Below, one piece after another: positions 20,973 through 25,536 of a DNA stretch of 64,000 nt. Numbering within the stretch: the stretch's first letter is position 1; the number at the start of each line of letters is the position of its first letter. The stretch comes from Pseudoxanthomonas sp. NC8 (lineage in GTDB: Bacteria > Pseudomonadota > Gammaproteobacteria > Xanthomonadales > Xanthomonadaceae). The notes under the pieces are model-generated. The model was not told where the DNA came from. It worked only from the letters and a program-made list of their open reading frames with translations, and searched no databases. The stretch is taken from the NCBI GenBank assembly GCA_025232375.1, contig CP060419.1, positions 371,001 to 435,000 of the forward strand, in the 5' to 3' direction. Both the position numbers and the translations under genes were made by a program.

Positions 20973-22089
20973 ATGAACCCTGCCGACCTCGACTACACCC
21001 CCTCCGCCAGATCGGCTGGCCGTGGGTGGGCCCGGCCGAGGATCCCGCCTGGCAGGCCGTGGCCGCCGCCTACCCCGGCGCGCGCCCGGCGCGGGTCAGC
21101 GAGCAGCACCGCACCGGCTACGTGCTGGCCGACGCGGCCGACACCGGCTTCCGGGTCGAGTCGCCGCCGGAATGGCAGCGCCGTCCCGTGTTCAAGGCCG
21201 ACGGCGTCCCCTGCACGAGCGCGCGGCGGTGGGCGACTGGGTCCTGCACGACGGCAAGCGGATCCTCGCCATGCTGCCCCGGCGCAGCGCGATCAAGCGC
21301 GCCGCCGCCGGCGAGCACTACCAGCAGCAGGTCATCGCGGCCAATGTCGATACCGCCTTCGTGGTCTGCGGCCTGGACGCGGACTTCAACCCGCGCCGGA
21401 TCGAACGCTACCTGCTGCTGGTCGGCGGCGGCGGCGTGCAGCCGGTGGTCGTGCTGACCAAGGCCGACCGCGACGGCACCGATGCCGACGCCGCGCAGGC
21501 GGCGCTGGCCGACCTGCGCGCGCAGGGCGTGCCGGTGCTGGCGCTCAACGCCAAGGATCCGCAGGCGGTGGCCGCGCTGGCGGCGTGGCTGGGCCCGGGC
21601 CGTACCGCGGTGCTGGTCGGCTCCTCCGGCGCCGGCAAGTCGACCCTGACCAACAGCCTGCTCGGCGAGCAGCGGATGAAGACCGCCGAGGTGCGCGAGC
21701 ACGATTCGCGCGGCCGCCACACCACCACCCACCGCGCCCTGATCGCGCTGCCCTCCGGCGCCTGCCTGGTCGACACGCCCGGCATGCGCGAGCTCAAGCC
21801 CACCGGCGAGGAAGAACTGGCCGACGGCGGCTTCGGCGACCTCGAGGCGATCGCCGCGCAGTGCCGCTTCAACGATTGCGCCCACCAGAACGAGCCCGGC
21901 TGCGCGGTACGCGCCGCGATCGAGGCCGGCGAGCTGGACGGCGCGCGCGTGGCCAACTACCTCAAGCTGCGCGACGAGGTCGCCGGCGCGGCTGACCGCC
22001 TGGCCAACCGGCTGGCGCAGAAGTCCGACGCGCGGGTGCAGAACAAGGCGCTGCGCAAGCGGCTGGACGAGAAGTATCCAAGGCGCTGA
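20973..22089 (+). CDS. rsgA: Small ribosomal subunit biogenesis GTPase RsgA
   Basis: Circularly permuted GTPase that assists late 30S subunit maturation. The G-motif order is permuted as expected: G4 VLTKADRDG comes first, then the P-loop GSSGAGKSTLTN and G3 DTPGMREL. An OB fold precedes it and a zinc knuckle follows (CRFNDCAHQNEPGC). About 371 residues. ATG 20973 begins MNPADLDY. The frame is broken near 21003 and 21215. The C-terminal basic helix ends KRLDEKYPRR before TGA. It is followed by the low-GC peptide locus on the opposite strand. Confidence 0.94.
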
Positions 22090-22178
22090 GGCGGAGTCGG
22101 ACGACCGATAGGTCGCCTTGGCGTTACTGCCGGAAAAGTTCCGGCCGCGTCACGCGTGTGAAGAGTTCCTAAATCCGG

Positions 22179-22325
22179 CTACCTGTCACAGGATTCGGAG
22201 AGCTGGCTGTGCTTTGCCTTGGCGGCAATGCCGATCTCCAAGAGATCGGCTCGACAATTCCAGACTAACAGGAAGGAAAGAAAGACAAGAGCGGCTCCTA
22301 AACATCTGGCTTTCGAGTTGGACAC
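22179..22325 (-). CDS. Small hydrophobic peptide D (possible fourth member of peptide locus)
   Basis: Candidate 48-residue peptide using GTG at 22325, with CGGAGA nine bases upstream. It has the same length and layout as peptide C: a short basic N-terminus (MSNSKARC), one hydrophobic segment (LGAALVFLSFLLVW) and a polar tail (NCRADLLEIGIAAKAKHSQ). It lacks the RNNI...EGYEEN signature of peptides A and C and has no double-glycine leader. A longer in-frame ATG exists upstream but with a badly placed RBS. It may be a degenerate paralogue or an unrelated small membrane protein; the call is tentative. Confidence 0.4.
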   Translation of the reverse strand: MSNSKARCLGAALVFLSFLLVWNCRADLLEIGIAAKAKHSQLSESCDR

Positions 22326-22441
22326 AGGCAAAGTCTCCGAATGCTGGATTTCCATTCCTGCCAACGGGGCGGCAAGAGAGGTTGGTGGTGCTGTTTGAGA
22401 CGAGTGCTTGCGCGTGCCGGATCGGCCAGAAAGGCTGCCGA

Positions 22442-22588
22442 CTAATCGGCAAGGTGTGCCGACTGATTTTCCTCGTAGCCTTCCAGGAATCCTGCGACGA
22501 AGCTGCTTATGTTGTTGCGTTGAGTCCATACCGCGATGAACAGAAGCACAAAGACTAGCGTGCGGTAGCGACCGATCGAAAGCCTCAT
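22442..22588 (-). CDS. Small membrane peptide C, paralogue of peptide A without leader
   Basis: 48-residue peptide from ATG 22588 with GGAG at a good distance. One transmembrane segment (RTLVFVLLFIAVW) is followed by RNNISSFVAGFLEGYEEN, which aligns with RNNIRDFAEGVFEGYEEN at the C-terminus of peptide A. It has no GG leader: the N-terminus is MRLSIGRYR. It could be a leaderless relative, a membrane partner or an immunity protein for A; none of these is proven. It lies 46 bases after peptide B, separated by a strong hairpin. Base composition is clearly less GC-rich than the surrounding chromosome. Confidence 0.7.
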   Translation of the reverse strand: MRLSIGRYRTLVFVLLFIAVWTQRNNISSFVAGFLEGYEENQSAHLAD

Positions 22589-22606
22589 TTTCTTCGCTCC
22601 AGGAAA

Positions 22607-22629
22607 GGTGGCCGCCTGAGGCGGCCACC
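22607..22629 (-). terminator. Perfect hairpin between peptides B and C
   Basis: GGTGGCCGCC-TGA-GGCGGCCACC is a 10-bp perfect stem with a 3-base loop. On the minus strand it is followed by CTTTCC, a weak T-rich tail. It could partially terminate or stabilise the 5' mRNA so that A and B are made in excess over C and D. Confidence 0.6.
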
Positions 22630-22634
22630 CCAGG

Positions 22635-22802
22635 TCAATGTCTCGTTGCAAGGTAGATCAAGGCCGGCACCGGTGGCAGAAGACCAGCTTCGGGATGGTG
22701 CTCGATCTCGCTAATCAAGGCACCCAGCTGCCGCCCCCAGCTTTTGGTCTCGGCATCACCGCCGCTGACCGAAAGGACATCTTCATCGCGCAGAGCTTTC
22801 AT
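22635..22802 (-). CDS. Double-glycine leader peptide B (bacteriocin/RiPP-like precursor)
   Basis: 55-residue precursor. The leader MKALRDEDVLSVSGG has the classical double-glycine pattern: hydrophobic residues at -12, -7 and -4, acidic residue at -8, Gly-Gly at -2/-1 relative to cleavage. The predicted core of 40 residues (DAETKSWGRQLGALISEIEH then HPEAGLLPPVPALIYLATRH) has an amphipathic helix and a Pro-rich hydrophobic end; it has no Cys. Such leaders are normally removed by a C39-peptidase ABC transporter, but none is encoded within the window. ATG 22802 follows the TAG of peptide A by seven bases, so A and B are co-translated. The core resembles nothing I know. Confidence 0.75.
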   Translation of the reverse strand: MKALRDEDVLSVSGGDAETKSWGRQLGALISEIEHHPEAGLLPPVPALIYLATRH

Positions 22803-22809
22803 GATTTTT

Positions 22810-22980
22810 CTACCTTTGGCTGTGCTTTGCGTGATTTTCTTCGTAGCCCTCGAACACCCCTTCGGCGAAGTCGCGGATGTTGTTGCGCTCATGGTAGACA
22901 AACCCGAGAACCATCAACGCTGTGATGACAGCAACGCCGCCTGATACCGCGTCAACCTCGTTTGCATGCAGGATTCGCAT
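22810..22980 (-). CDS. Double-glycine leader peptide A (bacteriocin/RiPP-like precursor)
   Basis: 56-residue precursor from ATG 22980, with GGAGAGGTG at ideal spacing, the best RBS in the locus. The leader MRILHANEVDAVSGG is exactly 15 residues, like that of peptide B, and shares M-[RK]-x-L, acidic/Val and V-S-G-G positions. The 41-residue core starts VAVITALMVLGFVYHERNN, a hydrophobic segment, and ends IRDFAEGVFEGYEENHAKHS, a polar amphipathic tail; it has no Cys. The core is related to peptide C. The gene is too short for common ORF thresholds. It probably heads the four-gene transcript, 110 bases after the end of maeB. Confidence 0.8.
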   Translation of the reverse strand: MRILHANEVDAVSGGVAVITALMVLGFVYHERNNIRDFAEGVFEGYEENHAKHSQR

Positions 22981-23005
22981 TTTTCACCTCTCCATGTGTT
23001 TGCGA

Positions 23006-23020
23006 GCCGGATCCTCCGGC
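23006..23020. promoter_or_regulatory. Palindrome in the leader of the peptide locus
   Basis: GCCGGA-TCC-TCCGGC is a perfect inverted repeat 26 bases upstream of the peptide A start and 70 bases after the maeB stop. It could be an operator for the peptide genes or part of the maeB terminator. No T-run follows on the minus strand, favouring the former slightly. Confidence 0.3.
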
Positions 23021-23090
23021 AAGATCAATCCTGCCTGCTGCGCCACGCCGTTGGAATCAGAAACCTCGTCCTCGCGCTGAAGGATTTTCC

Positions 23091-25383
<2,293 letters not shown>

Positions 25384-25536
25384 GTCCGTCACGGCGTTGG
25401 GCAGGCATCCGATTCTACGCGGAGGCCCACGGCGGGCGCGGCCGGCCCTGGTGTGCGGTCCCCCGCTCGCAGTGTTCGCGTGCCCCGTCCCGCCCGGCCG
25501 TGCTACCTATGGCCCCTCGAATCCACCGGAACGCCC

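Follow-up and report, generated by a model that had tools for sequence, protein, structure and literature searches.

Paired double-glycine-leader peptides and a leaderless paralogue beside maeB in Pseudoxanthomonas: a candidate two-peptide bacteriocin locus

Introduction

Between rsgA and maeB in the chromosome of Pseudoxanthomonas sp. NC8 lies a run of four tiny genes, which raises the question of why peptides with export-type leaders should be encoded beside leaderless peptides, at least one of which is visibly their relative. An earlier note on this DNA, made from the letters alone, had singled out the locus as an uncharacterised secreted-peptide system; here we follow it up in the window (the whole 64,000-nucleotide stretch), the rest of the genome and related genomes of the genus and family. 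The reading at which we arrive is of a two-peptide, class II microcin-like bacteriocin, against which the producer is protected by leaderless relatives of one subunit, with the last gene as an orphan. We would give this reading in its entirety an even chance of being correct; its narrower core, that the leader-bearing peptides are exported and bacteriocin-like, we rate higher.

The matter has a bearing beyond this locus. How immunity to two-peptide bacteriocins works is described as a mystery in PMC6957408. A candidate immunity protein which is itself a toxin-like, leaderless subunit suggests a concrete mechanism, namely a decoy that blocks assembly. If true, this would widen exported peptide warfare to include a large Gram-negative family, point to a mappable chromosomal slot holding toxin pairs together with matching leaderless genes, and supply many small peptide pairs for functional tests.

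Results and discussion

Four small genes between rsgA and maeB

The locus and its borders comprise the following features (window coordinates).

22810..22980, minus strand: A, precursor peptide of 56 aa, with a 15-residue double-glycine leader and a 41-residue core holding one GxxxG
22635..22802, minus strand: B, precursor peptide of 55 aa, with a 15-residue double-glycine leader and a 40-residue core holding one GxxxG
22607..22629, minus strand: hairpin between B and C, with a perfect 10-bp stem and a 3-nt loop; possible attenuator
22442..22588, minus strand: C, 48 aa, leaderless paralogue of A that combines one hydrophobic helix with an A-like tail; candidate immunity protein
22179..22325, minus strand: D, leaderless type-2 protein with a GTG start; candidate orphan immunity protein
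23091..25392, minus strand: maeB, upstream neighbour that marks the slot, frame-split in the assembly (PF00390, PF03949, PF01515)
21022..22089, plus strand: rsgA, convergent neighbour (PF03193)

The arrangement agrees with the earlier note, which had placed tiny genes A-D in one direction between rsgA and maeB and had seen a gap of 7 bases between A and B. It had also called C and D leaderless and 48 residues long: this holds in full for C, and D, too, is leaderless, with a length of 48 aa from the GTG but of 58 aa from an alternative ATG at 22355. The Pfam domains of the maeB product identify it as malic enzyme/phosphotransacetylase. The A-D locus has a GC content of 55.6% as opposed to 69.0% for the window. 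No sigma-70-like promoter was found in 22050-23150, and none of A, B, C or D is matched by a Pfam or NCBIfam model.

The genome is a single 3.54-Mb contig with an estimated completeness of 57%. Between 20900 and 25400 of the window the frame is broken in maeB and in the start region of rsgA, which fits assembly indel errors. Given this completeness and the split in maeB itself, frame breaks in this assembly are not to be taken at face value.

Leaders and cores of the two precursors

Both A and B satisfy the double-glycine leader rule, with L/E/V/V and L/D/V/V, respectively, at positions -12/-8/-7/-4. The exact 15-residue leaders reported earlier are accordingly present, as is the reported lack of cysteine in the cores of A and B, which extends to C. 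A pattern combining the leader with an ATG and a ribosome-binding-like site, composed after such peptides had been seen, has 2 matches at the locus versus 1 in 248.9 kb of other DNA. That the leaders arose by chance is ruled out by such counts against background DNA and against dinucleotide-shuffled slots (see below). We also set aside a RiPP reading, as A and B have no cysteine and no modification enzyme was noticed on reading the loci.

The cores are enriched in GxxxG motifs: across the 14 B cores from the paired loci described below there are 28, with 9.2 expected and at least one in every core, and across the 14 A cores there are 8, with 3.0 expected. Eight of the A cores have the motif, which is absent from type-2 A cores and from that of genome G163. 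A and B of the window each have a single GxxxG rather than an extended glycine zipper (GxxxGxxxG). Mature class IIb peptides are typically cationic. Both window cores, in contrast, have a net charge of -2, and the net charge is positive in only one of 14 A cores and three of 14 B cores. The class IIb model TIGR03949 (cut-off 21.5 bits) is matched by neither A nor B; S. sepilia A (16.1 bits) and G007 A2 (14.5 bits) score below the cut-off, which is passed only by a slot peptide of G001 (26 bits). In view of the charge and the curated models, we treat the locus as a candidate variant, rather than a certified member, of what by anatomy are the closest known systems, the class II microcins and the class IIb two-peptide bacteriocins.

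The precursors recur as a pair, linked to exporters

Related genomes were searched with profiles: one of A and C sequences matched 28 of 395 genomes of the family (E up to 0.05), one of A sequences 17 of 398 genomes at the level of the order, and one of B sequences 32 of 395 family genomes (E up to 0.01), with the many weaker matches inside long ORFs or confined to the leader not counted as A or B. Reading the loci revealed adjacent A-like and B-like leader peptides in 14 of them, the window and 13 further ones (G059, S. sepilia, G007, G011, G006, G015, P. helianthi (G223), G163, G309, G046, G389, G008 and G214), a count from a biased sample, as the loci were found through A or B. The leaders and the A/C signature, on the conservation of which the earlier note had staked its interpretation, are kept in related genera; the recurrence of A and B as a pair was not part of that note.

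In several relatives the pair is embedded among export genes. The order in P. helianthi is fusion gene, A, B, an 87-aa membrane protein and a transporter, the export genes having Pfam matches to C39, ABC and HlyD; in S. sepilia it is A, B, C, transporter and fusion gene; and in G046 and G389 the A-B pair lies between two export genes, those of the last three loci having been recognised by eye. In G163, where the A leader ends in Ala-Gly, B is followed by an Rce1/CPBP protein (PF02517, E 5.2e-16). No exporter was seen within 14 kb at the second locus of G008. Taken together, these comparisons leave both the A-B pairing and its exporter linkage well supported. Beside A-B-C of G059 there is, on the opposite strand (L031:10301-10519), a further double-glycine-leader peptide rich in GxxxG, followed by an ORF for a 93-aa membrane-protein-like product, and further leader matches occur elsewhere in that genome.

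This pairing bears on the possibility that A and B are separate single-peptide microcins which merely have an operon and exporter in common, with C guarding against A only and B being countered by another immunity protein or by none. Single class II microcins are the known norm in Gram-negative bacteria, as described in PMC9746304, and other slot peptides of the genus do occur singly. However, A-like and B-like peptides stand side by side in 14 loci, and GxxxG is present in every B core and in more than half of the A cores. We hence regard two independent microcins as unlikely, though as the foremost of the alternatives to a two-peptide bacteriocin.

Double-glycine leaders serve peptide signals too, the RaxX peptide of Xanthomonas being an example. 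A and B might hence be exported signals, either peptide pheromones or RaxX-like factors, with C as a regulatory or membrane partner. However, neither a sensor nor a sulfotransferase was noticed on reading the loci, and the CPBP-type neighbours in two related loci fit bacteriocin self-protection, as described in PMC8538875. A signalling role is in our estimate improbable, falling behind both independent microcins and the resident-protein explanation of C considered below.

A candidate exporter in the same genome

The earlier note had proposed looking for a C39-peptidase ABC transporter and a membrane-fusion gene elsewhere in the genome, and both are there, frame-broken as assembled. Three C39-peptidase matches lie above the Pfam cut-off. 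One is an ABC transporter gene that adjoins a membrane-fusion gene away from the locus, with the Cys, His and Asp motifs visible by eye in a three-frame translation; the other two look, by eye, like stand-alone proteins. The fusion protein has no Pfam match at 1e-5; ahead of its frame breaks it aligns to the P. helianthi counterpart over 233 residues with 48% identity. A C39 match exists in every genome of the genus but G005 (16 of 17), and for 15 of the 16 relatives the best one falls within an open frame of 694 aa or more.

C, a leaderless relative of A behind a hairpin

The earlier note had recognised that A and C have a common tail and had proposed a paralogue pair split into exported and retained forms. 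The paralogy is evident in the DNA itself, with 77% identity over a 56-nt stretch, and a search of the genome with A (E up to 10) returned A and C only. C retains a hydrophobic helix and an A-like tail and has no leader. The proposed split is strengthened by the recurrence of the order A-B-hairpin-C in eight loci from at least four genera, C being leaderless throughout and usually A-like. The hairpin, which had gone unremarked, was compared with shuffled sequences in seven of the loci: z ranges from -1.65 (G007, weak) to -4.98, with six values below -3.1, the window hairpin itself giving -3.17, or -2.93 with other bounds that include flanks. The G214 hairpin, folded without a shuffle control, has the same place. 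A terminator scan did not list the window hairpin.

The relationship between A and C holds beyond individual pairs. Profiles built from C proteins only find A peptides not included in them, in one run those of G223 (7.6e-7), G000 (3.9e-6), G163 (7.3e-6) and G059 (1.5e-5), and in a further run those of G006 (8.2e-7) and G214 (0.009). Moreover, A and C tend to match within a locus. When the similarities of all A peptides to their own C proteins are summed, the total is equalled or beaten by 3 of 40,320 re-pairings, or 3 of 720 within types, the observed pairing being counted here and below; for the tails alone these figures are 1 of 40,320 and 1 of 720, and for the first seven loci alone 1 of 5040 and 1 of 144. 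As A and C of one species share ancestry, such a match would follow equally from functional matching and from co-inheritance or gene conversion. The G214 locus, found after the idea had been formed, has an A-C score of 65, with 0 of 1000 shuffles as good. Row by row, the own C is the best match for four of eight A peptides and the own A for three of eight C proteins. Own A-C scores are 20-81 as opposed to 13-23 for own B-C. In S. sepilia no similarity between C and A is detectable, 443 of 1000 shuffles scoring as well.

A C profile (E up to 0.01) matched 15 of 390 family genomes. In 11 of these the match is a leaderless C frame; the four remaining matches fall to A peptides with a leader in G163 and G223 and to longer frames in G279 and G328. 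A leader peptide lies near the leaderless C in three of the 11, namely the window, G059 and G398, the last with a different one of 86 aa. In the remaining eight, G326 among them, no leader peptide is known nearby, the scans having covered 16-19 kb in six and about 1.3 kb per side in G185; three of the six longer surroundings have one weak match each to the leader pattern, judged to be chance. Such lone C genes would look the same whether they were orphan immunity genes or an independent family of membrane proteins.

A tree built from the A cores, C and D was too weakly supported to be of use. In G007, a small membrane protein encoded between MacA/MacB-like genes (L025:1447-1635) has a C-like end (SFVEGYIEGYSQ; E 0.003) and is at most a possible relative of C.

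D belongs to a second type of leaderless protein

D contains three cysteines and has an exact 14-mer of DNA in common with A. As it holds a palindrome, we had entertained that it might be non-coding, which was dropped once its relatives appeared: against each of the eight type-2 leaderless proteins compared, D reaches a score that none of 1000 shuffles equals, and it is by virtue of these matches a member of a real family. It also matches type-2 A cores (0 of 1000 shuffles as good for three of four, 21 of 1000 for the fourth), whereas similarity to type-1 sequences is weak or absent (11 to 828 of 1000 shuffles as good). The complete type 2, A2-B2-C2, occurs in the slots of G006, G007, G011 and G015 and also in G214, which is of another genus. 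Leaderless type-2 genes without A2-B2 are found, besides D, in the slots of G004, G009 and G016 and also in G162. This separate family, with an exported counterpart in sister species, is a further point absent from the earlier note; the exported type-2 partner of D was not found in this genome. In G011, a second leaderless type-2 gene (L164:5583-5735) follows the exporter genes, and its tail is close to that of the A2 of the same genome.

Two alternatives can be weighed against the distribution of C and D. First, C-type proteins could be resident small membrane proteins with a role of their own, from one of which A arose by gaining a leader, perhaps in order to mimic or disturb it in the target. 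The eight of 11 leaderless-C genomes without a known leader peptide nearby favour this. Against it, C follows A-B and the hairpin in eight loci; the C of S. sepilia, between B and the transporter, occupies the position held by the CPBP protein in G163 and by the 87-aa membrane protein in P. helianthi; and type-2 leaderless genes recur in the same slot both with and without A2-B2. A resident family is unlikely on this evidence, ranking just after independent microcins among the alternatives. Second, C and D could be decaying, functionless copies of A that have lost the leader. Both are short, the start of D is uncertain, and in the close orphan-C pair of G219 and G185 non-synonymous codon differences outnumber synonymous ones by 5 to 1, with no signal of purifying selection. 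However, place and size are constant behind the hairpin in the eight loci, a W is conserved in the C types, and a W and a Cys are invariant in the seven type-2 proteins aligned. Decay is in our view the least probable of the four alternatives.

A proposed mechanism and its relation to known systems

Returning to the two-peptide bacteriocin, we propose that A and B give rise to a class II microcin-like and probably two-peptide toxin. A C39-peptidase ABC transporter, encoded elsewhere, would act with the membrane-fusion protein and presumably TolC; it would cleave after the double glycine and export the 41- and 40-residue cores. Together these cores may attack competitors at the inner membrane, by way of helix contacts of the GxxxG type, and killing would stem from their synergy. 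C is predicted to stay in the inner membrane of the producer and protect it, most simply as a decoy subunit that occupies the partner face of incoming B, and the hairpin may keep its expression below that of A and B. With such a decoy, the resemblance of C to A rather than to B would make sense. D would then be an orphan immunity gene, belonging to the A2-B2-C2 type that sister species carry in the same slot. The genes and their leaders, the A-B pairing, the transporter linkage in relatives, the hairpin, the A-C homology in most loci, the family of D and the slot can be read from the sequences; export, killing, synergy, immunity and the decoy role are what we infer. Counting against the proposal are the many C relatives that stand alone, the S. 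sepilia C with no visible likeness to its A, the orphan-C codon count, the mostly non-cationic cores, the lack of matches to curated models and the frame breaks in the exporter genes as assembled.

Known systems match parts of this picture. The class II microcins of Enterobacterales (MccV and others) resemble our system in their double-glycine precursor and in a C39 transporter that works with a membrane-fusion protein; they also have a small transmembrane immunity protein, in the range of 51-216 aa according to PMC9746304, for which C is the candidate here. By contrast, two adjacent precursors recur together in our system, no curated model is matched, and C, as a leaderless relative of one precursor, falls below that range at 48 aa with one hydrophobic stretch. 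Immunity proteins of two-peptide bacteriocins are described down to 42 aa with one helix, as in CbnZ (PMC6957408, PMC8538875), and Abi/CPBP proteases are also described as conferring such immunity (PMC8538875). The class IIb bacteriocins of Gram-positive bacteria (plantaricins, lactococcin G, carnobacteriocin XY) have two short adjacent leader peptides with GxxxG and small membrane immunity proteins, the latter a candidate role here; our locus differs in its Gram-negative host, its mostly non-cationic cores and an immunity candidate that resembles one toxin subunit.

Cdz of Caulobacter is described as a two-peptide system of a Gram-negative bacterium that is secreted by a type I route and includes a small transmembrane immunity protein (PMC5380434), features which A-B would parallel, with type I secretion predicted and the immunity protein a candidate. 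Judged by that description, CdzC/D differ in being precursors of 84-86 aa with extended glycine zippers, whereas A and B are only 56 and 55 aa long and contain one GxxxG apiece. The nearest precedent that we found for a leaderless peptide in immunity is enterocin DD14, of which the intracellular leaderless peptide is reported to contribute to immunity (PMC7332713). There, however, the toxin itself is leaderless, while here a separate leaderless paralogue lies beside leader-bearing toxins. Among the open-literature matches listed, the titles and abstract openings describe neither the A-D locus nor a leaderless paralogue of a leader-bearing toxin as an immunity protein.

A variable slot downstream of maeB

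The end of maeB could be located in 16 of 17 genomes of the genus, and the 1.2-1.4 kb after it were scanned. Leader peptides are present in 14 of the 16 slots, the window included, with 18 matches in 22.5 kb as opposed to 1 in 248.9 kb of background. As noted above, the pattern postdates the first sight of such peptides; among the background DNA are the flanks of C-type matches and a 12-kb stretch with the slot of G010. In 100 rounds of dinucleotide-shuffled slots a mean of 0.03 of 16 was positive, with a maximum of 1. The slot of G009 misses the pattern and has a leader-like peptide with a Cys before Gly-Gly; in that of G010 no leader peptide was seen. The kind of peptide varies between species. 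The slots of G002, G008 and G011 also contain a transporter, and that of G008 a CPBP protein (E 8.6e-7). At its far side the slot is bounded by rsgA in the window and in G001 and, as judged by eye, by a pyruvate-dehydrogenase-like gene in several others.

More tentatively, and with somewhat less confidence than we place in the reading of the locus itself, we posit that two-peptide bacteriocins with decoy-subunit immunity are found across the family, and that the slot beside maeB is a variable site in which a genome would keep its own toxin pair together with orphan immunity copies against the types of its neighbours.

Several slots hold other families of leader peptides (L134-L137, L144-L146), both two-Cys (ELxC...C) and Ser/Thr/Gly-rich two-Cys ones, and CPBP-like ORFs come after several of these. 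Paralogues resembling signal peptidase II occur near slot leader peptides at L155:4016-4528 (G001; TIGR00077, E 7.5e-5, far under the cut-off) and, by eye, at L162:264-830 (G016) and L165:7468-7980 (G006). Finally, in G261, of another genus, a gene that by eye is maeB-like is followed by leader peptides and a C39-type transporter within 9 kb (L153:787-11086), from which it would appear that the slot may predate the genus.
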